Below are positions 1-13,011 of a DNA stretch of 13,131 nt, piece after piece. The notes beneath the pieces were generated by a model, which was not told the origin of the DNA, made no database searches, and saw only the letters and a list, made by a program, of their open reading frames with translations. The stretch's first letter is position 1. Each line of letters begins with the position of its first letter. Origin of the DNA: Candidatus Eiseniibacteriota bacterium (GTDB lineage: Bacteria; Arandabacterota; Arandabacteria; JAGLYR01); contig JAGLYR010000111.1 of assembly GCA_023132135.1 (NCBI GenBank), positions 1-13,131 of the forward strand, read 5' to 3'. Both the position numbers and the translations under genes were made by a program.

Positions 1-32
1 CTGTGTGCGAATCCATCCGGATTCGCACACAG
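1..32 (+). promoter_or_regulatory. Perfect 14-bp stem-loop in the feoB leader
   Basis: CTGTGTGCGAATCC (1-14) is followed by the loop ATCC (15-18) and the exact reverse complement GGATTCGCACACAG (19-32). There is no T-run after it on the + strand, so it is not a classic intrinsic terminator for rightward transcription. It ends 8 bases before the feoB ribosome-binding site. It could be a leader RNA hairpin, an mRNA-processing or stability element, a dyad operator, or the end of something left of the window. The window edge cuts any further context. Confidence 0.7.
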
Positions 33-53: not shown

Positions 54-1757
54 GTGAGAATCCTGCTGGTCGGGAATCCAAACGTAGGCAAGAGCGTGAT
101 TTTCAACAGGCTCACAGGGGCCAACGTTATCTGCTCCAACTACCCTGGAACAACCGTGGAGCTCATCAAGGGCCACATGCGGGTTGCGGGGGAGAGAGTG
201 GAACTCCGGGACGTGCCCGGGACATACTCGCTTGAAGCCTCGTCGCCTGCGGAGGAAGTCGCCGTGCGGATGCTTGAGGACGGCGATGTCATCATCAACG
301 TTGTGGATGCCACGAACCTTGAGCGCAGCCTCAACCTGACCCTCCAGCTCCTGAAACGCCGGATTCCCATGATCGTGGCTCTGAACCTCTGGGATGAAAC
401 CCGCCACACCGGTGTCCAGATTAACACAGAGAAGCTAGCGGGCATCCTCGGCGTACCGTGCGTGCCGACCACAGCCATCACGGGCGAGGGCGTCAAGAAT
501 TTGGTGGATAGGATTCCCGAGGCCGGGATCTCGGCGTTGGACTACGACGACGCTGATCGCTGGCAGAAAATCGGTGAAATCGTCGGGGATGTCCAGAAGG
601 TCACGCATCGTCACCACACGGCACTCGACAAGCTGGAGGACGCCTCGGTCAGGCCGTTCTCAGGAATGCTGATTGCTCTGGTCGTTCTGGCGGGGGCGTT
701 TGAAGCCATAAGATTCATCGGTGAGGGTCTTATTGGATATGTGTTTGAACCACTTTTTGAGACTGTCTGGGCCCCGGTGATGATGCGGCTGTCGGCTCTG
801 CTGGGTGGAGGCGGGGTGGTTCACGATCTACTTATCGGCAGGTTGGTTGAGGGGAACATCGACTTCGGCGAATCGTTCGGCCTTCTGACGACCGGGCTGT
901 TCGTCCCGATCGGCGCGGTCCTGCCGTACGTCTTCGCCTTCTATCTCGCCCTCTCCTTCCTTGAGGACACCGGGTACCTTCCGAGGTTGGCCGTGATGAT
1001 GGATGGCCTGATGCACCGGCTTGGGCTGCATGGTCTGGCCATCGTGCCTACGATGCTCGGCCTGGGCTGCAATGTCCCCGGCGCCCTCTCCGCGAGAATC
1101 ATGGAGAGCCGGAAGGAGAGATTCATCACCGCGACCCTGATGGCGATATCTGTTCCCTGTATGGCGCAGATCGCCATGATTGTGGGACTGGTGGGGGAGG
1201 GTGGAGCGAAGGCGCTGCTGGCCGTTTTCGGGACCCTGTTTCTGGTCTGGCTCGGCCTGGGAATGCTCATGAACCGGATCATCAAGGGAGAGAGTCCGGA
1301 AATCCTGATCGATGTCCCCCCGTACCGCATCCCGTACTGGAAAGGGTTGTTCAAGAAACTATGGATGCGGGTTGTCTGGTTCCTGCGGGAGGCGGTCCCC
1401 TGGGTGATGGTCGGCGTGTTCGTTGTCAATGTTCTCTACACGCTTCGGGTCATCGATTTCATCGGAGGATTGGCTGCCCCGGTCATTACGGGGATCCTGG
1501 GGCTCCCGCTGGAAGCGGTGGGGGGACTCGTCGTCGGTTTCCTGCGGAAGGACGTGGCGGTGGGAATGCTGGTTCCTCTCCATCTGACGGTGAAGCAGGC
1601 AGTCGTCGCCAGCGTTGTTCTGGCCATGTATTTCCCCTGCGTGGCCACCTTTGCGGTGCTGATCAAGGAATTCGGGATTCGAGACATGCTGAAAGCAGCC
1701 GCTATCATGGTCGTCTCGGCCTTCACGGTGGGTGGGCTGCTCAACGTGATCCTGTGA
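54..1757 (+). CDS. feoB: FeoB-type ferrous iron transporter, short form
   Basis: This inner-membrane permease imports Fe2+ and carries an N-terminal cytosolic G domain. All G motifs are visible in the 567-residue product: G1 GNPNVGKS (7-14), switch I NYPGTT (29-34), G3 DVPGTY (53-58), G4 NLWD (111-114) and G5 AITG (141-144). A short helical linker (about 160-200) leads to the membrane part from about residue 203. The two Gate regions carry the family cysteines: GLGCNVPG (C339), VPCMAQ (C369) and FPCVAT (C529). Many FeoB proteins are 650-800 residues; this one has a compressed GDI/linker region and no C-terminal FeoC-like extension. Start is GTG at 54, with AGGAGG 7 bases upstream. The stop lies 32 bp before the TonB-receptor gene, suggesting co-transcription. 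FeoA is not in the window but could lie to the left. Mn2+ transport is a less likely alternative, known for one P. gingivalis FeoB paralogue. Confidence 0.95.
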   Translation: MRILLVGNPNVGKSVIFNRLTGANVICSNYPGTTVELIKGHMRVAGERVELRDVPGTYSLEASSPAEEVAVRMLEDGDVIINVVDATNLERSLNLTLQLLKRRIPMIVALNLWDETRHTGVQINTEKLAGILGVPCVPTTAITGEGVKNLVDRIPEAGISALDYDDADRWQKIGEIVGDVQKVTHRHHTALDKLEDASVRPFSGMLIALVVLAGAFEAIRFIGEGLIGYVFEPLFETVWAPVMMRLSALLGGGGVVHDLLIGRLVEGNIDFGESFGLLTTGLFVPIGAVLPYVFAFYLALSFLEDTGYLPRLAVMMDGLMHRLGLHGLAIVPTMLGLGCNVPGALSARIMESRKERFITATLMAISVPCMAQIAMIVGLVGEGGAKALLAVFGTLFLVWLGLGMLMNRIIKGESPEILIDVPPYRIPYWKGLFKKLWMRVVWFLREAVPWVMVGVFVVNVLYTLRVIDFIGGLAAPVITGILGLPLEAVGGLVVGFLRKDVAVGMLVPLHLTVKQAVVASVVLAMYFPCVATFAVLIKEFGIRDMLKAAAIMVVSAFTVGGLLNVIL

Positions 1758-1789
1758 GTTCTGTCGTAAACGGAGGTGCATACGAGATA

Positions 1790-4243
1790 ATGAGGAAGAT
1801 CCGGGTTTCGCTATTCTGGGCTACGCTGGCAGTTCTGTTGGGATCGGCGGTGGCGACGCAAGCGCAAGAGCTGGGGCGGATCGAAGGGCGCGTGGTGGCC
1901 GAGGAATCGGCCGTCCCGCTCTACGGCGCAAATGTCGTGGTACGAGGCACGCTTCTGGGAGGAGCCGCCCGCAGGGACGGGACCTACTTCGTCGCGGGTG
2001 TTCCCCAGGGACACCACGAGATCGAGGTCTCCATGATGGGCTATGCGCTGCAGAGGAAGGGAGTGGACGTTGTGGCGGGAGCCACAGTGACTGTCAGTTT
2101 TGAACTCGTGGAGACTGTTCTGGATCTGGGAGAGGTGGTCGTGACAACGGCTACGAGAACACCGCGCTACATCAAGGACGTGCCGGTGCGAACTGAAGTC
2201 GTCACAGGGACTGCCATCAAGGATAAGGGTGCGGCCAACCTCTATGAGGCCCTGGAGGGAACATCCGGCGTGCGGGTCGAGCAGCAGTGCTCCGCATGCA
2301 ACTTCTCCGTGCTCAGGATGCAGGGCCTGGAAGGTGATCACGTGCAGATTCTCGTGGACGGTCAGCCTGTCTACTCAGGCCTTGCCGGAGTCTACGGTCT
2401 GCAGCAGATCCCCTCGGCCAACATTGAGCGGGTCGAGATTGTCAAGGGCGCAGGTTCGGCCCTCTACGGGTCCAGTGCCATCGCCGGCGCGGTGAACGTG
2501 GTGACCAAACAGCCCACCAGAACCCCGATGCTCAAGTTCTCCTCCACCTTCGGCTCGCACAAGACGAATCAGTACTCTGTAGTCTCCTCGCAGACGCTTG
2601 GGAATCAGGATCTCATTTTCACCGCACAGAAGAACACCGGAAAGGAAATCGACCAGGACGGGGACGGCCTCACTGACCGGGTGGAGCTGGACAACATCGC
2701 GACGGGTATCAGGGTGAACTGGCACGATCTCTGGGGGCAGGATCAGTTCTCGGTGAGCGGCCGCACCCTGAACGAGTCTCGTCAGGGCGGTGAACTGGCC
2801 ACTTTCGAAAACCCCTTTGCCCCGGGAGCGGAACACGTTGAGACCGGACGCTACGAGGCAGGGGTTGCGTACTCGAAGACGTTTGGCTGGGACGGTGAGA
2901 TGGGGATCTCCACAAACTACGTGTCCCACGACAGAAACGCCACGAACGACACCTTCCTTGGGGATTACCAGTTGACCCACAGGGATGCCATACCGGCGGT
3001 GGACGAGCTGGAGCCCTACATTGCGAGGGAGAAACTCTACGTGGTGGACGCAAGTTACTCACATCCCCTGGCCGACAAACACAGACTGCTGGCCGGCGTC
3101 CAATACCGGAGAAACGAGCTGGAGGAGACAGGCCGGTACGTGATCGTGGACGAGAATGACCCAGGGTATGGAGAGACATACACCTCGATCGGTAACAAGC
3201 GCGCGGATGATCTGGGTTTCTATGCGCAAGGCGAGTTTCTGTTGAGTCCTGACCTGGAGCTGGTCGCGGGGGCCAGGTTCGACAGCCACGACTCCGAGGC
3301 CGATTTCGGGGGGGCCGGAGACGGCGCGCCTGAAGGCACGGTGGCCCTGGATTATGATGAGACGGCCTTCAATCCTCGGGCTGCGCTTCGCTACAGCCTC
3401 GGCTCATGGACATTCCGGACGAGCGTTGGCACCGGTTTTCGAGTGCCGTACGGGTTCGCGGAGGATCTTCACCTTTGCAGCGGCTCTCCCCGGGTGTACA
3501 AGCCGGGCGGCCTGAAGCCGGAGAAGTCGCGCAGTGTCAACCTCGGCGCCGACTACGATGGTGACGGCTACACTCTGAGCCTCAATCTCTTCCGTACGGA
3601 CGTCAAAGACAAAGTCGGGCTGGCCGATGCGGACGAGACGACGCAGAGCCTCGGGTTCACCTACCAGTGGGAGAACTTCGACGAGGCCTTCACCCAGGGA
3701 ATCGAGGCAGGCGCGCGAGTGGAACTGCCGAAGGGCACGGTTCTGGACATGAATGTTGGATACACAGACGCTCAGTACGAGAGCCGACGCCCGGACTGGG
3801 TGGAAAATCACAGCGAGCGCTTTGCCTCGGCCAGCAGGTTCATCTCCCGCGTCCCGAAATGGGCAGGAGGAATCAAACTGGAATTCTCGCCTGGAGAGTG
3901 GCGGTTCGTAACGGAGACTAACTACACGGGGTCGATGTATATCGACTACAACGAGGAAGACAATGTCGCGAATCCAGGCAGCAGGATCGTCCACACCGAT
4001 CCATACTGGCTGGTGAACGGGCGAATCTCAAAGGAGATCACCCGATCCGGAATTTCACTGTTCGGCGGCGTCAGAAATGCTTTCGATTTCGTCCAGGAAG
4101 AGCGACATCCCGACGATGCGGCATTCATCTATGCACCGCTCACCGGCCGGACTGTCTACGGAGGTATCGAGTTCAATTTCTCTGGAGGAGAAGAATCCGG
4201 TTCCCACTGCGGCGCCGGGCGTTGCGAGGTGCCGAACGGATAG
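1790..4243 (+). CDS. TonB-dependent outer-membrane receptor with Cys-pair plug
   Basis: This is an outer-membrane active transporter, 817 residues. A signal peptide ends near AQ26. A carboxypeptidase-regulatory-like domain covers about 29-112 (GRVVAEES to MMGY). A TonB-box-like EVVVTTA lies at 115-121, the plug at about 122-240 (RMQGLEGDHVQILVDGQPV, SALYGS, VNVVTK), then the beta-barrel. The plug has a CSAC pair (C167, C170). A D-x-D-x-D-G calcium-type loop sits at 288-296 (DQDGDGLTD) at the start of the barrel. The last strand appears to end at F797 and is followed by a 20-residue hydrophilic tail with HCGAGRC (C807, C812), whereas most such barrels end on an aromatic residue. ATG at 1790 is chosen because the signal peptide starts there; GGAGGT at 1772-1777 is 12 bases upstream, slightly long. 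The frame is open much further upstream, but only over feoB. The substrate cannot be read from sequence; iron complexes or tetrapyrroles are suggested by the neighbours. Confidence 0.94.
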   Translation: MRKIRVSLFWATLAVLLGSAVATQAQELGRIEGRVVAEESAVPLYGANVVVRGTLLGGAARRDGTYFVAGVPQGHHEIEVSMMGYALQRKGVDVVAGATVTVSFELVETVLDLGEVVVTTATRTPRYIKDVPVRTEVVTGTAIKDKGAANLYEALEGTSGVRVEQQCSACNFSVLRMQGLEGDHVQILVDGQPVYSGLAGVYGLQQIPSANIERVEIVKGAGSALYGSSAIAGAVNVVTKQPTRTPMLKFSSTFGSHKTNQYSVVSSQTLGNQDLIFTAQKNTGKEIDQDGDGLTDRVELDNIATGIRVNWHDLWGQDQFSVSGRTLNESRQGGELATFENPFAPGAEHVETGRYEAGVAYSKTFGWDGEMGISTNYVSHDRNATNDTFLGDYQLTHRDAIPAVDELEPYIAREKLYVVDASYSHPLADKHRLLAGVQYRRNELEETGRYVIVDENDPGYGETYTSIGNKRADDLGFYAQGEFLLSPDLELVAGARFDSHDSEADFGGAGDGAPEGTVALDYDETAFNPRAALRYSLGSWTFRTSVGTGFRVPYGFAEDLHLCSGSPRVYKPGGLKPEKSRSVNLGADYDGDGYTLSLNLFRTDVKDKVGLADADETTQSLGFTYQWENFDEAFTQGIEAGARVELPKGTVLDMNVGYTDAQYESRRPDWVENHSERFASASRFISRVPKWAGGIKLEFSPGEWRFVTETNYTGSMYIDYNEEDNVANPGSRIVHTDPYWLVNGRISKEITRSGISLFGGVRNAFDFVQEERHPDDAAFIYAPLTGRTVYGGIEFNFSGGEESGSHCGAGRCEVPNG

Positions 4244-4254
4244 AGACGGACTGC

Positions 4255-4276
4255 GCGAGTCCCTTTGCCGACTCGC
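4255..4276 (+). promoter_or_regulatory. Stem-loop 5' of the chelatase ribosome-binding site
   Basis: GCGAGTC (4255-4261) pairs perfectly with GACTCGC (4270-4276) around an 8-base loop. It occupies most of the 49-bp gap between the receptor stop and the chelatase start and ends 4 bases before AAGGAGG. No T-tract follows, so a role in mRNA stability or translation fits better than termination. Confidence 0.5.
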
Positions 4277-4280
4277 AATG

Positions 4281-4287
4281 AAGGAGG
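4281..4287 (+). promoter_or_regulatory. Ribosome-binding site that fixes the chelatase start
   Basis: AAGGAGG lies 5 bases before GTG at 4293. An in-frame ATG at 4278 overlaps this site and has no Shine-Dalgarno sequence of its own, and further upstream in-frame starts lie inside the receptor gene, so GTG 4293 is preferred. Confidence 0.75.
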
Positions 4288-4292
4288 AAACC

Positions 4293-5225
4293 GTGAGAGT
4301 TGTTGTCGTCTTTCTTGCATGCCTGTTCAGTTTGCCGTCAGGGGGACTGGCAATGGATACGGGGCTCATGATCGTGGCGCATGGGGCGCCGTCGCCGGAG
4401 TGGAACAGGGCGATCTTCGAGGTGGGAAAGCAGGTTGAGTCGCTCCGCAGTCAATACCAGGGTGGGAGTTTCCGCGGGGCAAAGGTAGCCATGCTGGAAT
4501 TCGCGAAACCAAACGTCCCGGAGGTAATGGCGGAGTTCGAGGCAGAGGGATACGGTCGGGTAATCGTGATACCCCTGTTCATCGCTCCCTCGGGCCATTC
4601 ACATGTGGATCTTCCTGCCGTGCTCGGCCTCTACTCGGATGAGGACGTGCAGGAGGAATTCGGTGGGGAGGTGGCCGGGAGACTCGGCAGGGGTTGCCTG
4701 CCCGTGATTGTGGGGCCGACGCTGGCGTCGGGAAACGTCCCGGCCCTGGCTGTGTGTGACCAGGTGAGGGAACTGTCGACGTCTCCGGACAGCGAGGCGG
4801 TGGTAATCCTGGCCCACGGCGATCACGGAATGGGGCCGGTATGGGAAGGTCTGTGCAGGGAGGTCTGCGCATACGTCTGCGGCAAGACCGGAATCACCTG
4901 GTGCGACTGGGCGTTCGTGGAAATGGGCCAAGCCTATCTTGCCGAGGGGATCCCGACGATCCTGCGGGCGAGTGAGGCGCGCCCCCGCGTCCTTGTTGCG
5001 AGTCTGTACGTAGCGACGGGGGCGGACCGCATAGCTGAGCGCTGGGGAAAGGCCGGTGGGGGGAGCGGCAAGGCGCCTCGGGGTATGATGGCAGCGTTTG
5101 CAAACGCACTGGAGGGCGTTGACGTGCAGTTCTCATCGAGGGGCGTGCTTCCGGATGAGAGAGTAGCCGGGTGGATTCTCGAAGAAGCGGAAGCCATTGT
5201 TGAGAGAGTGGAAGGGGGACACTGA
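4293..5225 (+). CDS. Exported CbiX/CbiK-type class II metal chelatase
   Basis: The product (310 residues) looks like a sirohydrochlorin cobalto/ferrochelatase that is secreted. A Sec-type signal peptide spans 1-20 (MRVVVVFLACLF to GGLA). Two CbiX-like halves follow. The N-half has the first active-site His in VAHG (H30), the LEFAKP strand (E69) and the second His in SGHSHVDLP (H102, with H104 nearby). The C-half repeats the pattern with LAHGDHG (H175) and FVEMGQ (E210), but where the second His should be it reads ATGADRI (242-247), so only the N-half keeps a full pair. Cytosolic members make cobalamin or siroheme; an exported copy next to iron-uptake genes argues for handling metallo-tetrapyrroles in the periplasm. 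Desulfovibrio CbiKP is a known periplasmic relative, and P. gingivalis IhtB a CbiK-like outer-membrane heme-binding protein. The gene stops 1 bp before the next start. Chelatase family is well supported; direction of reaction and substrate are inference. Confidence 0.87.
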   Translation: MRVVVVFLACLFSLPSGGLAMDTGLMIVAHGAPSPEWNRAIFEVGKQVESLRSQYQGGSFRGAKVAMLEFAKPNVPEVMAEFEAEGYGRVIVIPLFIAPSGHSHVDLPAVLGLYSDEDVQEEFGGEVAGRLGRGCLPVIVGPTLASGNVPALAVCDQVRELSTSPDSEAVVILAHGDHGMGPVWEGLCREVCAYVCGKTGITWCDWAFVEMGQAYLAEGIPTILRASEARPRVLVASLYVATGADRIAERWGKAGGGSGKAPRGMMAAFANALEGVDVQFSSRGVLPDERVAGWILEEAEAIVERVEGGH

Positions 5226-5226
5226 G

Positions 5227-5523
5227 GTGCCGCCGGAGACGCTGCACAGCACGTCTGGTGAATCTCCCTCTGTCGACGAAGTGATTGAGCGGTGTACGGC
5301 GGGCTTTCACGCGATCGTGGACATGCAGGAGGATCTCCTGAAAGCTGTCCTCAACGCCGGGCGGAGCAGAAGTGAGACGCCCAGCAGCTCGGGCGACACC
5401 GAACGCGCTCTGAGGGGCGCCATTGTCGAGGCGGTCGAGATCCTGGACCAGACTCGGAAGGCGTTCAAGTCAAAACAGCTCGAGCAGCTCCGGAGCCGCC
5501 TGCTCCGGATACTCGAGGTATAG
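5227..5523 (+). CDS. Small helical protein, function unknown
   Basis: I do not recognise this 98-residue protein. GTG at 5227 lies one base after the chelatase stop, with AAGGGGG 8 bases upstream, so translation is probably coupled. An in-frame TTG at 5197 would give a longer, less convincing N-terminus inside the chelatase gene. There is no signal peptide or membrane segment, so it should be cytosolic, unlike its exported neighbours. It is predicted mostly helical: one helix around SVDEVIERC to VLNAG, a Ser-rich linker, then an amphipathic, charged C-terminal helix from GAIVEAVEILDQ through KSKQLEQLRSRLLRILEV that could form a coiled coil. It has a single Cys (in ERCTAGFH) and no obvious metal or DNA-binding motif. 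A 7-bp hairpin (5490-5508) lies inside its 3' end. An adaptor or regulator of the iron operon is possible but unsupported. Confidence 0.65.
   Translation: MPPETLHSTSGESPSVDEVIERCTAGFHAIVDMQEDLLKAVLNAGRSRSETPSSSGDTERALRGAIVEAVEILDQTRKAFKSKQLEQLRSRLLRILEV
5490..5508 (+). other. Stem-loop at the 3' end of the small gene
   Basis: CCGGAGC (5490-5496) pairs perfectly with GCTCCGG (5502-5508) around CGCCT. It is within coding sequence and has no T-run behind it, so it may be incidental, but it is the first of four stem-loops in the 150 bases leading into the next receptor gene. Confidence 0.4.
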
Positions 5524-5545
5524 ATATTCATCTGTTCTTCTCTGG

Positions 5546-5579
5546 CGTAGGCTTGTCCTGCGGTCCGAATTGTCTTCGG
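5546..5579 (+). promoter_or_regulatory. Two small stem-loops in the second receptor leader
   Basis: CGTAGG (5546-5551) can pair with CCTGCG (5557-5562), one G-U pair. CCGAA (5565-5569) pairs with TTCGG (5575-5579). They lie in the gap 5524-5627 just before the large terminator-like hairpin. I see no cobalamin, heme or other known riboswitch signature and no clear promoter here. Confidence 0.35.
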
Positions 5580-5583
5580 TCAG

Positions 5584-5643
5584 CGAGGCCATGACTGACG
5601 TCCGGCAAGATGTCGGGAGACGCAGTCATGGCCTCGTTTTGTT
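5584..5643 (+). terminator. Terminator-like hairpin containing a start codon
   Basis: CGAGGCCATGACTG (5584-5597) pairs perfectly with CAGTCATGGCCTCG (5623-5636). The stem continues inward after a single bulged A with CGTC (5599-5602) to GACG (5619-5622), then CGGCA (5603-5607) to TGTCG (5611-5615) with one G-U pair. TTTTGTT (5637-5643) follows directly. This is the shape of an intrinsic terminator closing the feoB operon. The best start of the next gene (ATG 5628) is in the 3' arm and its GGGAG is inside the hairpin, so it could equally act as a switch on that gene. Confidence 0.65.
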
Positions 5644-7988
5644 ATCACCGGCGAGATGCCGGTGGAATACTCCTCGCTGTTCTCCTCTCGCTGGTTCTGG
5701 GAGTGCACCCCTCATCGGGCGGCTCGATTCTCTCGGGCCGCATCATTGACGCGGAGACAAACAAGCCGGTTTCTGATTGCTACGGCTACGTGGAGGGTGA
5801 AGGGTGGGCCTTCGTGACAGACAAAGAGGGCCGCTTCGCTATCCAAATCAGCAATCTTCCCGCGTTCATCAAGACACGGCATGTTGCCTACCGCGAACTG
5901 ATCTACACGATCCAGGACGAAGGTGACCTGGACCAGGAGATCGTGCTCCGGATCGTCCCCGGTTCCTACGTCCTCGAGCCGGTTCAGGTTACTGAAAGCC
6001 GTTTCCGGATGGATCCTGAACGGACGCCTGCACCACTCTCGGTCATTTCTCGAGAACAGATTTCCCATGAGAGCCCAATCAATGTCGGTCAGCTTCTTAC
6101 ACAAGTGCCCGGCGTGGAGTTGGAAAAGACAGGCCCGTGGTCTGCTCGACCTGTTATCCGGGGGCTGGGGGGGGACCGGGTGCTGGTGCTGGTGGACGGG
6201 CACCGCCTCAACCAGCCGAGGGGGCACGGGGCCCAACCGTCCCTCGTAGATATCGAGTCGGTGGAGCGGGTTGAGATTCTCCGCGGGAGTGCTTCGGCTC
6301 TCTATGGCTCGGAAGCGATGGGCGGGGTCATCAACATCGTGACGAAGAGTGGGCGGGGTCACGACGCGCACTCGGGATTCGGTGGGGGGATCAACCTCAT
6401 CGGGCGGACCGCGGACGAACAACTGTACGGCCGTCTCGACCTTCACGGCCGCACCGGACCGCTGAGCTTCGAGGTTGGAGTCAGTGGGCGTTCAGTGAAC
6501 GAACTCAGGACACCCGAGGGGGCGGTTCCCAACAGTGACTTCAGCGACCTGAGCGCGGACGCGGCGGTGCGCCTTCGCATCGGCGATCGCCACAGGTTCC
6601 GCATCTCTCTTCAACACTATCGTGCTGAAGACATTGGCATCCCGGCTTTCAACACTGCTGATCTGGGCAGTGGGCGGTTTCCCTTCAAAGAGCGGGAGTT
6701 CCTGGAAGCATCCTACACGCTGGAGAACGTCAGAAAGTGGCTGCCCAAGGTAGGAGCCAGTGTCTACCGGCAGGGAATCAACTCTCGCTTTGAAGAGAAC
6801 CGTGTTGACTCCCTGTTCTTTGGCGTCGGACTGGGGAAGCGTTTCATCGGGTGGCGTGTTCTCGACGAGGACAGGCATTCGGATCTCGAAACGCTCGGGG
6901 AGCGGGTCGAGGCAGTCTGCATTGCTGCGGATGCGCTCCTTGTCACGCTCGGGATCGAGAACGTGGAAGACGAAGTCGGCGGTCCCAATTCGAGCCACGA
7001 AGTCCAGCTCACGCCGGACGGCGCCGTTCGCTACGACGGGGGCGTGGTCGAGGGCGCCGCGATGCCGGACGCGGTGCGGGAGGTTCGCTCCGCGTTCCTG
7101 CAGAGCGAGCTGCAAATCCGCTCTCTGCTTCTCCTCACATTGGGCGGTCGCTACGACTGGGCGAGGACCAGGACGGACCTGACCGAGGGAAGTCCGGTCG
7201 ATCCCGGGGAGTTGCAGGACGAGCGGCTGAGCGTGAAGCTGGGCGCGAAGGTAGACGTGACGAAATGGCTGGGGCTCACGGGCGCGCTTGGAACCGGCTT
7301 CAAGATCCCGTCGCTCCAGGAGCGCTACTACAACGGGACGGTGCACGGGGGTTTGATGCTCTTCGGGAACGAGGACCTCGTGAGCGAGAAAACCCTGACG
7401 GCGGATCTTGGAGCGCGCCTGACGCTGAACCATCTCAGAGGCAGGGCGGATCTGTTCCGAACCTGGGCCGATGATCTCATCACTGTGCAGTACCTCACGC
7501 TCCTCTTCGGCAGGCCTCGGTTTCAGTACTTCAACGTGGACAAGGCGATTATCGAGGGTTTTGAGACGGAGCTCACGTGGAATCCGCACCGGCGCCTGGA
7601 GGTGAGCGCAGCGCTGGCCTGGCTCAGAGGAGACGACGTCAGCAACGCGGCGTTCAACGAGGGTGAGCGGACGCCTCTCCCGTCCATGCCTCCGGTCAAG
7701 TGCGTACTGCGGTTGACGTATCGTCGGCCCGTCGGCTGGGGAGCTCTTTCGAACCTGTGGATCGAGCCGCGGGCCCGGATTGTCGGCGACCGCAAGCGGG
7801 TGGCGGTCAACGAACCGGCCTCGCCCGGTTTCACAGTGTATGACGTCCGCGTGGGCATGGAGGTTGGCAGCTCGCTCGAGGTCACACTAGCGGTGGAGAA
7901 CGCAACCAACAAGCTGTACCGGGAACCGCTGTCCTTTGTCACGGAAGCGGAACGGAACTTCGTGGTGGGTGTGCGGAGCAAGTTCTAG
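5628..7988 (+). CDS. TonB-dependent outer-membrane receptor, heme-receptor-like
   Basis: The product from ATG 5628 is 786 residues. It has a signal peptide (MASFCYHRRDAGG, then LLAVLLSLVLG), a carboxypeptidase-regulatory-like domain (about 34-115), a TonB-box-like VQVTES, a plug (about 125-242: RGLGGDRVLVLVDGHRLNQP, SALYGSEAMGG, INIVTK) and a barrel ending in F786. In the barrel, FKIP (558-561) and NEDL (581-584) sit where heme receptors have FRAP and NPNL boxes, with H573 between them, the position of the conserved heme-binding His in HemR/HmuR-type proteins. That favours heme or hemoprotein uptake, but BtuB-like or siderophore receptors share the plug features. The start is ambiguous: ATG 5610 is also in frame, but only 5628 has a plausible GGGAG (5615-5619). 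Both lie inside the terminator-like hairpin. Upstream is the chelatase operon; downstream is a 65-bp gap to a secreted protein. Confidence 0.93.
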   Translation: MASFCYHRRDAGGILLAVLLSLVLGVHPSSGGSILSGRIIDAETNKPVSDCYGYVEGEGWAFVTDKEGRFAIQISNLPAFIKTRHVAYRELIYTIQDEGDLDQEIVLRIVPGSYVLEPVQVTESRFRMDPERTPAPLSVISREQISHESPINVGQLLTQVPGVELEKTGPWSARPVIRGLGGDRVLVLVDGHRLNQPRGHGAQPSLVDIESVERVEILRGSASALYGSEAMGGVINIVTKSGRGHDAHSGFGGGINLIGRTADEQLYGRLDLHGRTGPLSFEVGVSGRSVNELRTPEGAVPNSDFSDLSADAAVRLRIGDRHRFRISLQHYRAEDIGIPAFNTADLGSGRFPFKEREFLEASYTLENVRKWLPKVGASVYRQGINSRFEENRVDSLFFGVGLGKRFIGWRVLDEDRHSDLETLGERVEAVCIAADALLVTLGIENVEDEVGGPNSSHEVQLTPDGAVRYDGGVVEGAAMPDAVREVRSAFLQSELQIRSLLLLTLGGRYDWARTRTDLTEGSPVDPGELQDERLSVKLGAKVDVTKWLGLTGALGTGFKIPSLQERYYNGTVHGGLMLFGNEDLVSEKTLTADLGARLTLNHLRGRADLFRTWADDLITVQYLTLLFGRPRFQYFNVDKAIIEGFETELTWNPHRRLEVSAALAWLRGDDVSNAAFNEGERTPLPSMPPVKCVLRLTYRRPVGWGALSNLWIEPRARIVGDRKRVAVNEPASPGFTVYDVRVGMEVGSSLEVTLAVENATNKLYREPLSFVTEAERNFVVGVRSKF

Positions 7989-8053: not shown

Positions 8054-10009
8054 ATGCGTAGACGTTTGTTGTGCATCGGGGCGGCCGTTGTGCTCCACAT
8101 CGTATCTGTTGCGCAAAGCGGAGCGGCACAGGATCTGTTGCCCTCGCCCTTCGCCGGGCGCAGCCTCTTCATAGACGAGAGATTCACACTCAGGCCGGGA
8201 CTACTCCGAAGCGGACAGGTGGACATCCCGGTATCCAGAGACACTTCGCCCGGCACGCTCGTCGATTCCACGTACTACGATCTTCAGGACATGGGTGGGC
8301 TGGGAAAACGCATCGTGGTCGCGCCGAACGGGGAAGTTCACCTGTCCTACCAGAACGGCTTCTGCTATCTCGCGCCCAATGGCTGCCCTCCGGATCCGAA
8401 TGAGCCGGATCCCTTCCCGAAGCGCGCCATGGGCTACGCCGGACATGCGGGGGGTTCGTGGTATTTCCCGGGGAAGGTGACGGACCCGGATCTCCCTCAG
8501 TGCTGTGCTTCCCCCGACGATCTGGGCGGCTATGGCGCTATTGCACTTACCCCGGACGGACGTGCGGCGATTGCGCAGCACATGAATCAGGACGGTTGTG
8601 ACCGGCGGGGCGATGTGTACGTGGACTCGGGCGTGGGTACCGGCGACTGGGAGGCCTATCTCGGGGAGATCACACCTGAGAGCTACATGTTTCCGCAGTT
8701 GGTTGCGAACCCGAATGGTTCCTTCACCATGCTCGGTGAAGTTCCGCGTGGCGGGGAGCACGGCGGGACGTTTGATGTCCGGGTTGCCTATCTGGGAGAG
8801 GAGGGCCAGGAAATTGACTGCCAGACCATCTACTGGCAGTTCGGGTCTTGGCGGAGCATCATCGACCTTGGCCTCTTCATCGGTGAAACGCCGGAGTTCC
8901 CTTCGATTGCAGGTGGGTCCGACGGAAGGGTCGCCGTCGCCGTTGTAGATAACGGAGGAAACGTGTACCTGGTCGAATCCTCCGACGGCACGTTCGATCC
9001 GGGAACCACCGCGCTGACCAACATCACCAACTACAGCCCGGACGGGATTACCGATCCCGATTCGACCTCGTGCGAGTACCGGCCATTCGTGCAGTGTGAC
9101 GTCGCGTACAACGACACGGTTCCCCACGTTGTCTGGTGCGAAATGCAGGCGCGGAAGGAAGGAGACAGCTTCTACCTGATCGACTACCGGAGCAAAGTCA
9201 AACACTGGTCGCCGGAGACCGGCGTGGAAACGGTCTATCAGATTCCCCCAGGCGTGGCGGATCTATACGACGAACCCTACCTCGGTCTGCCTGGATACTA
9301 TCCCGGTTTCAACACGGCGACCGTCGACTGGCCCCAGGTGGGCTTTTCGGACGACGGCGCCCGCACATACGTCGTCTGGGTTGGATTCAATGACACAGAC
9401 GTGGATACCTCGGTCCACGCCGGGTTGCCGGGCATCGTCCTGGGGGTTGGATTCGGAGATCTGTACTTCGCCCGCTCGGATGGACGTGGATGGATGGAGC
9501 CGGAGAACATCACGGACTCACCCGACCGGGACGATCGCTACCCGTCCCTGGCGGTTTTGAACCCGGACGGCCTCGCTCACATCGTTTACCAGACCTCCGC
9601 AGCGGCCGCCGCAGGCGGCTCGATCATCGGCGACCGCGACGAGGAGCCGCTGGATCTCCACTATATCCTCTACCACGAGTTCCAAACGGGCTACTACGGA
9701 ACCGTGGCGAGGGAGGAAACAGCGGGGCTTCCCTTCTCTGCGCTCCGGTGCTACCCGAATCCAGGTCGATCCTCGGTGCACTTCTCCGTCGGCGTCGATG
9801 TGGGGGGAAGAATCGACGTGAGCATCTTCGACGTGACCGGCCGGCGAGTGGCAGAGGTTACGGCGGTGAAGCAGGCCGGAGGAATCCTCGATATCGAGTG
9901 GAATGGTCGGGGAGATGGTGGTTCGGCGGTGGCAAGCGGCGTCTACTTCGCCGCGCTGGCGGTGGATGGTGTTCCGCAGGGAGTTCAGCGGTTTGTGCTT
10001 GTGCGGTAA
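8054..10009 (+). CDS. Secreted beta-propeller protein with FlgD/T9SS-like tail
   Basis: The product is 651 residues with a signal peptide ending near GAAQ26. No named family is recognised, but seven short motifs recur at about residues 89 (VAPNGEVHLSY), 164 (ALTPDGRAAIA), 217 (VANPNGSFTML), 286 (AGGSDGRVAVAV), 348 (CDVAYNDTVPHVVW), 430 (GFSDDGARTYVVW) and 500 (AVLNPDGLAHIVY). The 53-82 residue spacing and pattern fit a seven-bladed sialidase/BNR-like beta-propeller. Sialidase catalytic residues could not be assigned. The last ~90 residues, from YPNPGRSS through FDVTGRRV, GRGDGG and SGVYF to the basic end LVR, form a FlgD-Ig/type IX-sorting-like domain, suggesting surface display or secretion. 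Unusual is the number of Cys in the propeller (among them CC in PQCCASP), possibly disulfides. ATG 8054 has AAGGAG 7 bases upstream. It follows the receptor gene by 65 bp; a functional link is not shown. Confidence 0.86.
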   Translation: MRRRLLCIGAAVVLHIVSVAQSGAAQDLLPSPFAGRSLFIDERFTLRPGLLRSGQVDIPVSRDTSPGTLVDSTYYDLQDMGGLGKRIVVAPNGEVHLSYQNGFCYLAPNGCPPDPNEPDPFPKRAMGYAGHAGGSWYFPGKVTDPDLPQCCASPDDLGGYGAIALTPDGRAAIAQHMNQDGCDRRGDVYVDSGVGTGDWEAYLGEITPESYMFPQLVANPNGSFTMLGEVPRGGEHGGTFDVRVAYLGEEGQEIDCQTIYWQFGSWRSIIDLGLFIGETPEFPSIAGGSDGRVAVAVVDNGGNVYLVESSDGTFDPGTTALTNITNYSPDGITDPDSTSCEYRPFVQCDVAYNDTVPHVVWCEMQARKEGDSFYLIDYRSKVKHWSPETGVETVYQIPPGVADLYDEPYLGLPGYYPGFNTATVDWPQVGFSDDGARTYVVWVGFNDTDVDTSVHAGLPGIVLGVGFGDLYFARSDGRGWMEPENITDSPDRDDRYPSLAVLNPDGLAHIVYQTSAAAAAGGSIIGDRDEEPLDLHYILYHEFQTGYYGTVAREETAGLPFSALRCYPNPGRSSVHFSVGVDVGGRIDVSIFDVTGRRVAEVTAVKQAGGILDIEWNGRGDGGSAVASGVYFAALAVDGVPQGVQRFVLVR

Positions 10010-11105: not shown

Positions 11106-11155
11106 GTGAAGCGTAAGGCGATTCTTCACTGTGCAACGAACCTGCGTTCAACCAA

Positions 11156-11171
11156 CCTGCTCCACTGCAGG
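11156..11171 (+). promoter_or_regulatory. Stem-loop overlapping the beta-helix gene's binding site
   Basis: CCTGC (11156-11160) pairs with GCAGG (11167-11171) around TCCACT. The 3' arm runs into the purine-rich AGGAGGGAGGG (11169-11179), the Shine-Dalgarno region 8 bases before ATG 11188, so folding could partly hide it. A second upstream CCTGC (11141-11145) could pair alternatively. Confidence 0.35.
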
Positions 11172-11187
11172 AGGGAGGGCAGTAGCA

Positions 11188-13011
11188 ATGAAGGCCGGAA
11201 GAGCTTGTGTCATGCTCGTTTCACTTCTCCTGGTTATCGCAACATCTTCTCCCGCCTTGGCCCAGCTCACGGGAATCAAGTACATCGGCGGTCAGTCGCC
11301 CGATTACTCGACAGTTGAGGAAGCGATTGATGATCTGAATGCCCAGGGTGTAGGCGAGGGCGGTGTGACCTTCCTCATACGCGACGGCGTGTACGAGGAA
11401 AACGAGAACCTGATGATCTCGGGAGTCAGCGCGACCGCTGAGAACCCTGTCATTTTCCGGCCCGACGTGGATGCAACGGCGGAGATCAGATTCACGCTGA
11501 CGGGCGCGCAGCACTTCGGGATCAGACTCCACGATTCCGACCACGTCTGTTTTAACGGCGCGCCCTACCAGGGCAGGGCCGAAAGCAGGAACCTGACGAT
11601 CAACGCCTGGCGGATCAACGACGAGGACATCTTCACTATCTGGATTTCCAATGGGTCGGACCATTGCAGCCTGGAGAACCTGATTGTCTTCAACGAAGAC
11701 ACGTCGGACAGGACCGGCTGGTCAATGCCCGTGTACCTTTCGACCTACGGGGTGACCTCTCCGGAAGTGGGCATGGATGCGATCGGTGTCTCGAACTGTG
11801 AGCTTGTCGGCGGATCCACCTACGGGCTGTTCATGGACGGCGATCCCGGGATTCAACTCACCAACTTCCAGATCGTGGGCAACGACATCCACGACTTCGC
11901 AAGGTACGGCATTCACGTGCTCACTGACGTCATCGACTGCAATATCGAGGGGAACGAGGTCTACCAGACGTTTGAGGGCAGGAGTTCGGTGTATGGCATT
12001 CGGGCGGGTTCATCCAGCTGCAGTGGCCTTCGGATCCATCACAACTACATCCACGACCTCATGCACGAACCTCCCGCAAAGCCCTATGGTATATTCATGA
12101 CCAGCAATTGCCATGACAACCTTGTCTACAACAACATCATCCACCTGCTGCCCGCGCCCACCGCCAATAAGGCGTACGGGATCTACTGCTCGTCGGGCGA
12201 TTACGCGAACAACCGCTTCTACTACAACACGATCTATCTCGGCGGCACAAGCACCATTGATCGGGATTCCTACTGCCTCTACGTGTACAAGGATGCAAGC
12301 GACGACGTCCTGAAGAATAACATCCTGATCAACGACAGAACCGGCGGTAACGGGAAGCACTACGCCATTCGCATGAAAGCCATCACGTTTGCAGAGAGCG
12401 ACTACAACTTCCTTACGGTCACTTCCGACGACCCGCTGGACAATTGCTTCGTCGCGCGCATCGGGAGCGTGGACTACAATACCCTGGCGGACTTGCAAGG
12501 GGCGCCGGGATATACGCCGCGAGACCGGAACTCGCTCTCGGGTGACCCGGACTTGATCTACCCGGATCTCCATCTGAATGAAGCGAGTGGTTGCATCGGG
12601 AAGGCCACACCCATTGCGCTCATTTCGACGGACTTCGACTACGAAGAGCGGGATGCGGTGACCCCGGATATGGGGGCCGACGAGTTCCACGAGCTGTCGG
12701 ACGTGTCGGACGTCGATGCGGCGAGGGCACAGCTTCCGAGGCTTCTGTGGAACAGCCCGAATCCGTTTGGCGCGAGAGTTACGATCTCGTATGAAATGCC
12801 GGAGGAGGCGAGAATAGAGCTGGCGGTCTACGACGTCCACGGTCGGTTGGTTCGGAATCTTGAGACGGGTAGCAGACTGCCGGGCCGGCACCTCATTCAG
12901 TGGGATGGAAGAGGAGAAGACGGCAGGGCCCTCCCGAGCGGTGTCTATTTCTGCCGTCTGGAGATTGAGGGCCGGTTGGTGGAGACGAGGAAGCTGGCTC
13001 TGCTCAGATGA
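11188..13011 (+). CDS. Secreted parallel beta-helix protein with FlgD/T9SS-like tail
   Basis: The product is 607 residues with a signal peptide ending near ALAQ26. After a pectate-lyase-like start (STVEEAIDDLNAQG, TFLIRDGVYEEN) come right-handed parallel beta-helix rungs, about residues 130-430, with recurring Asn-hydrophobic turns: NLIVFNE, NFQIVGNDIHD, NIEGNEVYQ, RIHHNYIHD, LVYNNIIHL, RFYYNTIYL, VLKNNILIND. The helix closes with the TPDMGADEF motif frequent in such proteins. A linker (LSDVSDVDAARAQ) leads to a ~90-residue FlgD-Ig/type IX-sorting-like domain: NSPNPFGARVTISY (from N522), YDVHGRLVRNL, IQWDGRGEDG, SGVYFCRL, ending LALLR. It is probably secreted or cell-surface. Beta-helices often bind or cleave polysaccharides, but no catalytic site could be assigned. 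ATG 11188 fits the purine-rich ribosome-binding site and the signal peptide; in-frame codons upstream lack both. A promoter candidate lies at 11077-11105. Confidence 0.92.
   Translation: MKAGRACVMLVSLLLVIATSSPALAQLTGIKYIGGQSPDYSTVEEAIDDLNAQGVGEGGVTFLIRDGVYEENENLMISGVSATAENPVIFRPDVDATAEIRFTLTGAQHFGIRLHDSDHVCFNGAPYQGRAESRNLTINAWRINDEDIFTIWISNGSDHCSLENLIVFNEDTSDRTGWSMPVYLSTYGVTSPEVGMDAIGVSNCELVGGSTYGLFMDGDPGIQLTNFQIVGNDIHDFARYGIHVLTDVIDCNIEGNEVYQTFEGRSSVYGIRAGSSSCSGLRIHHNYIHDLMHEPPAKPYGIFMTSNCHDNLVYNNIIHLLPAPTANKAYGIYCSSGDYANNRFYYNTIYLGGTSTIDRDSYCLYVYKDASDDVLKNNILINDRTGGNGKHYAIRMKAITFAESDYNFLTVTSDDPLDNCFVARIGSVDYNTLADLQGAPGYTPRDRNSLSGDPDLIYPDLHLNEASGCIGKATPIALISTDFDYEERDAVTPDMGADEFHELSDVSDVDAARAQLPRLLWNSPNPFGARVTISYEMPEEARIELAVYDVHGRLVRNLETGSRLPGRHLIQWDGRGEDGRALPSGVYFCRLEIEGRLVETRKLALLR

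Follow-up and report, generated by a model that had tools for sequence, protein, structure and literature searches.

The window considered here is the entire 13,131-bp contig JAGLYR010000111.1 (forward strand) of GCA_023132135.1, the draft genome of a Candidatus Eiseniibacteriota bacterium (3.4 Mb, 345 contigs, 96.4% complete). It opens 53 bp 5' of feoB and carries a run of five genes, all on the + strand, encoding the ferrous iron transporter FeoB, a TonB-dependent receptor (receptor 1), a chelatase with a predicted signal peptide, a small helical protein and a further TonB-dependent receptor (receptor 2). The first four are separated by gaps of 32, 49 and 1 bp, values that are exact with the chelatase start placed at GTG 4293. 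A sequence-only reading of the same DNA had described this arrangement, which the coordinates and domain matches confirm, and had proposed that a periplasmic chelatase frees iron from a tetrapyrrole for uptake by FeoB; that interpretation is partly supported by the present analysis, and the computations returned no result that refutes it.

54..1757, + strand: feoB, ferrous iron transporter, 568 aa, GTG start (TIGR00437, FeoB_N, Gate, FeoB_C)
1790..4243, + strand: TonB-dependent receptor 1 (Pfam CarboxypepD_reg, plug, barrel)
4293..5225, + strand: exported class II (CbiX/SirB-type) chelatase, putative periplasmic dechelatase, 310 aa (CbiX PF01903)
5227..5523, + strand: small helical protein with an FKSKQL motif (homologues near iron genes)
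5610..7988 (ATG 5610 or 5628), + strand: TonB-dependent receptor 2, likely of the heme/hemoglobin type (TIGR01785)

The central element of the run is the chelatase. From the GTG at 4293, which is preceded by a Shine-Dalgarno sequence, the protein begins with a predicted signal peptide, and those relatives whose genes are not interrupted by a contig end likewise carry a hydrophobic export signal at the N-terminus, in agreement with the earlier claim that the enzyme is exported. In Pfam it matches CbiX PF01903 alone (50.5 bits, cut-off 22, over the first lobe only); CbiK PF06180 is not matched, one relative reaching 20.8 bits under the cut-off of 26.2, and membership of PF01903, not PF02514, places the protein outside class I (HmuS/CobN). 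The best NCBIfam models are those of sirohydrochlorin nickelochelatases, below their cut-off. An AlphaFold model built from 31 natural sequences (pLDDT 87.5, pTM 0.85) predicts a complete two-lobe α/β class II chelatase fold across the full chain, and structure comparison of this model gave SirB (Z 20.4 over 238 residues), the coproporphyrin ferrochelatase CpfC (Z 18.4), the periplasmic CbiK-P of Desulfovibrio vulgaris (Z 17.4) and FetB of Porphyromonas gingivalis, which we take to be the same protein as IhtB (Z 17.1). As judged from the predicted fold and the aligned His/Glu/His residues, the protein is a member of the class II superfamily (SirB/CbiX/CbiK/HemH). The features of its gene are as follows.

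4281..4288, + strand: Shine-Dalgarno sequence AAGGAGGA for the GTG 4293 start (from sequence)
4293..4352, + strand: predicted signal peptide MRVVVVFLACLFSLPSGGLA (from sequence, with the GTG 4293 start)
4380..4382, + strand: His30 codon, equivalent to CfbA His9 and SirB His10 (CfbA alignment, PMC11301274; invariant in 31/31)
4497..4499, + strand: Glu69 codon, equivalent to CfbA Glu42 and SirB Glu43 (CfbA alignment; invariant in 31/31)
4596..4598, + strand: His102 codon, equivalent to CfbA His75 and SirB His76 (CfbA alignment; invariant in 31/31)
4815..4817, + strand: His175 codon, second-lobe counterpart of His30 (lobe-to-lobe profile; invariant in 31/31)

In CfbA, His9, Glu42 and His75 are the metal ligands (PMC11301274), and the lobe-to-lobe equivalence of His30 and His175 follows from an hhalign comparison of the N-lobe and C-lobe profiles (E 7.8e-7). 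SirB has two active-site histidines, with Arg134 at the position of the second-lobe histidine, and CfbA brings together four across its dimer (PMC11301274); by alignment, the present family looks like a one-chain, three-histidine intermediate between these two patterns.

The genes on either side of the chelatase are those of iron and probable heme transport. FeoB scores 362.8 bits against TIGR00437 (cut-off 315.7), also passes the Pfam cut-offs, with its G domain, Gate and FeoB_C all present, and is the sole FeoB_C match in the genome. FeoA was not found in the genome but may be absent from the assembly, as the contig edge lies so close to feoB that an upstream feoA or regulator, if any, has been lost. 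The best NCBIfam model for receptor 2 is TIGR01785, matched over its full length (residues 123-792) at 255 bits, under the cut-off of 316.85, and ShuA and PhuR are among its best-matching solved structures; by these resemblances the receptor is likely of the heme type, short of a formal assignment. Orthologues of receptor 1, at 42-49% identity, adjoin the chelatase in Eisenbacteria, one Bacteroidota metagenome-assembled genome (MAG) and one Zixibacteria MAG. The receptor 1 subfamily is further marked by a CxxC motif in the plug (Cys167, Cys170) and by a DLHLCSGSPRV(Y/W)K box in the barrel, containing a histidine and a cysteine, both invariant with the orthologues in L070, L073, L074, L080, L092 and L096.

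The window resembles the remainder of its genome in base composition (G+C 60.6% versus about 60.5%; tetranucleotide r 0.954, slightly under the 0.976-0.992 of the other contigs), and mis-binning of the contig was rejected as unlikely. In this 96%-complete genome, no match was found to a FecCD permease, to the CobN/HmuS domain PF02514 or to HemB, for each of which the control genomes were positive, and there is no second CbiX. Without FecCD, heme, siderophores and B12 lack a canonical path across the inner membrane, which accords with the earlier suggestion that a heme ATP-binding cassette (ABC) importer is dispensable here; most FecCD matches in Eisenbacteria are weak (E 1e-6 to 1e-8) and could come from ABC-3 relatives as opposed to heme importers. 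HemB is also absent from the four other chelatase-bearing genomes tested. A cell without HemB makes no tetrapyrrole, and its chelatase must therefore act on an imported ring.

A scan of relatives, taking one genome per species, yielded 45 named loci of the exported chelatase family across many phyla, including Eisenbacteria, Latescibacterota, KSB1, Zixibacteria, Sumerlaeota, Acidobacteriota, Planctomycetota and Bacteroidota (Prevotellaceae among them), with further loci in MAGs labelled Elusimicrobiota, Thermodesulfobacteriota and Deferribacteres, labels that may be wrong. A search of viral contigs returned no relatives. Neighbours on the same strand within 7 kb were scored for 49 loci (the 45 together with the window, a pair of Persicobacter plasmids and a single additional locus), some of which are near-copies of each other, so that the counts are not independent. 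A TonB receptor was found near the chelatase in 29 of the 49, HmuY in seven, DtxR in six, Fur in one, FeoA and FeoB in four each, a Fer4/FMN membrane protein in four, ChaN in three and the small protein in two. None of nine cytosolic CbiX-type relatives had genuine neighbours of the scored kinds, a weak FeoB match near the cytosolic control L038 having been discarded as an Era-like GTPase by sequence. Gene orders include Fur-FeoA-FeoB-chelatase-polyferredoxin in L071 and FeoAB fusion-receptor-HmuY-chelatase in L078 (both confirmed by Pfam), DtxR-FeoA-FeoB-small protein-(one gene)-chelatase in L091 (DtxR-FeoA confirmed by Pfam), and DtxR-receptor 1-chelatase in Eisenbacteria; HmuY was confirmed by Pfam in L080, L087, L088 and L104, and ChaN in the loci of Prevotellaceae. 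The FeoB linkage requires a minimum of three independent changes on a tree of 31 chelatase copies, and a rough estimate of our own puts the number of loci expected to have FeoB within ~5 kb on the same strand at 0.1, versus four observed.

Other associations were seen in these neighbourhoods. FmdE was scored near the chelatase in five of the 49 loci, as exported FmdE-domain proteins, mostly in Bacteroidota (L067:6895-7623, L075:4626-5372, L072, L080 and L087), which are a possible extra component. The Prevotellaceae loci (e.g. L099:10943-20607) share a conserved set of chelatase, SusC-like receptor, SusD, DUF4929, M16 peptidase and ChaN heme-binding protein. On the Persicobacter plasmids (L032:8845-12516 and L033:8962-12597), a single open frame of ~1,220 aa, flanked by the exported chelatase and HmuY, encodes a multi-pass membrane part (FMN_bind/Fer4_5) continuous with a complete TonB receptor. 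It has a signal-peptide-like stretch at the junction and may represent two genes fused in frame or a cleaved precursor.

Together, these observations point, with a probability of roughly 0.6, to an iron-acquisition operon acting outside the inner membrane, in which an iron-bearing tetrapyrrole would be imported, its iron removed in the periplasm by the class II chelatase, and the resulting Fe2+ taken up by FeoB. One or both TonB receptors would carry the tetrapyrrole, most likely heme, into the periplasm, where the exported chelatase may hold the ring between its two lobes and draw the iron onto the His30/Glu69/His102 site, with His175 on the facing lobe assisting re-protonation of the ring. 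Heme iron probably needs prior reduction, for which the flavin/iron-sulphur (Fer4/FMN) membrane proteins found in several related loci are a possible source of electrons. The Fe2+ set free would then enter through FeoB, and the iron-free ring would stay outside or serve elsewhere. The broader claim that the exported SirB-type proteins are an undescribed, phylum-spanning group of class II heme dechelatases, independent of HmuS, which use a three-histidine site and electrons from flavin/iron-sulphur partners to provide periplasmic iron for FeoB, is put at slightly less than even odds.

Several points weigh against periplasmic iron removal. For the nearest exported class II enzymes that have been studied, the reported activity is metal insertion: FetB makes Mn-protoporphyrin, and iron removal is entered as 'FetB?' (PMC13402209). 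In Bacteroides fragilis, disruption of cbiK left heme-iron use unimpaired (unpublished data quoted in PMC6460266). No reductase is visible in the window. The conserved adjacency anticipated by the sequence-only reading holds in many phyla for TonB receptors, HmuY and iron regulators, but FeoB is adjacent in just 4 of the 49 loci, several chelatase relatives have no iron genes nearby, and none of the seven class-mates examined (from a phylum sample of eight genomes) has the chelatase gene. As these class-mates lack HemB as well, the absence of HemB excludes biosynthesis but is not by itself evidence of dechelation.

The strongest competitor is that the chelatase exchanges or inserts metal, loading Mn2+, Co2+ or Zn2+ into a scavenged porphyrin as has been proposed for FetB, while FeoB either recovers the iron so displaced or serves as an Mn2+ importer. 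In favor of this possibility are the response to manganese that DtxR-family regulators can show and the full conservation of the insertion ligands in the chelatase family; FetB, described as making Mn-protoporphyrin (PMC13402209), also shares the fold. The FeoA, FeoB, Fur, HmuY and ChaN neighbours nevertheless indicate iron and heme, and FetB is a CbiK-branch protein to which the family profile gives just a weak match, located in the second lobe (E 0.0011); exchange or insertion is considered unlikely. A lower likelihood still is given to a non-catalytic role, in which the chelatase fold would serve as a periplasmic hemophore passing heme from the receptors to another enzyme. CbiK-P of D. vulgaris and IhtB/FetB of P. 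gingivalis are each described as heme-binding class II chelatases, the former in the title of Lobo 2017 (via PMC11301274) and the latter in the title of PDB entry 9b86. Heme carriage without catalysis is made less likely by catalytic His/Glu ligands that never vary among the 31 sequences; in addition, the genome has neither a FecCD importer to accept intact heme nor HmuS, and HmuY is often already present as a hemophore.

A role as an ordinary sirohydrochlorin chelatase of B12, siroheme or F430 synthesis, placed near iron genes by happenstance, is suggested by the best (below cut-off) NCBIfam models but is highly improbable. The concern attached to the sequence-only reading, that the protein might not be exported, runs counter to the signal peptides found throughout the family; the absence of HemB from this genome and the four others tested removes B12 and siroheme synthesis, and no cobalamin riboswitch was found in the window or in seven relatives. 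There is an equally slight chance that feoB, receptor and chelatase are accidental neighbours working separately, as the shortness of the contig and the same-class genomes without the chelatase might suggest, given the recurrence of the association over many phyla, the receptor 1-chelatase pairing in several of them, and a FeoB linkage that is scattered on the tree in four loci and exceeds the rough expectation.

The remaining features of the window are as follows.

5584..5636, + strand: hairpin with 14-bp perfect arms (5584-5597/5623-5636) followed by TTTTGTT (-40.6 kcal/mol)
1..32, strand not assigned: perfect inverted repeat with 14-bp arms at the contig end, upstream of feoB (from sequence)

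The hairpin lies between the small gene and receptor 2 and covers the receptor 2 start codon, so that receptor 2 may form a unit of its own or be controlled independently. It could be a terminator, an attenuator or a translational control element; a search of the window matched no Rfam family. The inverted repeat at 1-32 was not found in the small number of further contigs examined from this genome. The small protein gave nothing above cut-off in Pfam, but it probably assists iron uptake as a member of an undescribed family linked to iron, because its homologues adjoin FeoB (in L119 immediately 3' of FeoB, overlapping its stop, with DtxR nearby, and in L091 directly after DtxR-FeoA-FeoB) or, in L118, a FecCD/Peripla_BP_2 importer. 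Further downstream, 8054-10009 and 11131-13011 each encode a large secreted protein that ends in an FlgD-Ig domain; both are apparently unrelated to iron, and one of them has a beta-helix and weakly matches a Por-secretion tail.

Class II chelatases are textbook cases of enzymes that insert metal during the synthesis of heme, siroheme and B12. The occurrence of a widespread exported branch with HmuY, TonB receptors, FeoB and iron regulators, in genomes where no HemB was found, suggests that the fold has been reversed for iron scavenging. If this is true, the family would add to HmuS a second and unrelated means of extracting iron from heme anaerobically, and could explain heme-iron use in anaerobes that have neither HmuS nor heme oxygenase. 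Proteins that current models would class as sirohydrochlorin chelatases, including those of Prevotellaceae, would become dechelatase candidates, and the family would possibly account for the demetallase of pigmented Prevotella, which was reportedly observed in 1979 and never identified. The sequence-only reading knew of no described system with this gene set. The principle is already known, periplasmic dechelation with FeoB having been published for Bacteroides (PMC6460266, PMC12583661) and a receptor-chelatase pair being known from Iht; the enzyme branch (exported, CfbA/SirB-type, with three histidines), the inclusion of FeoB among the operon genes and the wide distribution of the family appear new. 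No description of such an exported chelatase family was found in the literature searched, most subscription papers lying outside its reach.

Among known systems, SirB, CfbA and CbiX share the fold and the His/Glu/His metal ligands with the window enzyme, whereas they act in cytosolic, biosynthetic settings and the window family is exported, with three histidines in one chain. CbiK-P of D. vulgaris is, like the window enzyme, an exported class II chelatase of the same fold, and it binds heme, but it belongs to the CbiK branch, is distant in sequence and has cobaltochelatase activity, which as an inserter's activity adds to the points against iron removal; according to the title of Lobo 2017, its heme binding involves two extra histidines. 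The Iht system of P. gingivalis comes closer, since it pairs a TonB receptor (IhtA) with an exported class II chelatase, the CbiK-like lipoprotein IhtB/FetB, that is suspected of heme-iron removal and has the same fold; the corresponding adjacency of receptor 1 and chelatase in the window (49 bp) is kept in Eisenbacteria and others. FetB, however, is of the CbiK branch and described as inserting Mn, whereas the window family is of the CfbA/SirB branch with its metal site in the first lobe, and the literature examined links Iht to neither FeoB nor HmuY. The Hmu system of Bacteroides (HmuY/HmuR/HmuS with FeoAB; PMC12583661, PMC6460266) likewise combines a TonB receptor, an extracytoplasmic chelatase-family enzyme and FeoB, and HmuY recurs in several loci of the present family. 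In B. fragilis, the use of heme iron depends on FeoAB, the iron being taken out of heme in the periplasm (PMC6460266), while the B. thetaiotaomicron enzyme HmuS converts heme to protoporphyrin and Fe(II) with NADH (PMC12583661); in the window, too, iron is proposed to leave heme outside the cytoplasm. The differences lie in the enzyme, HmuS being a membrane-bound class I (CobN/ChlH-like) protein of ~1,450 aa and the window enzyme a class II protein of 310 aa, and in the setting, with FeoB inside the window operon and no CobN/HmuS detected in the genome. By analogy, the route proposed for the window is best read as a class II counterpart of the Bacteroides HmuS and FeoAB route.

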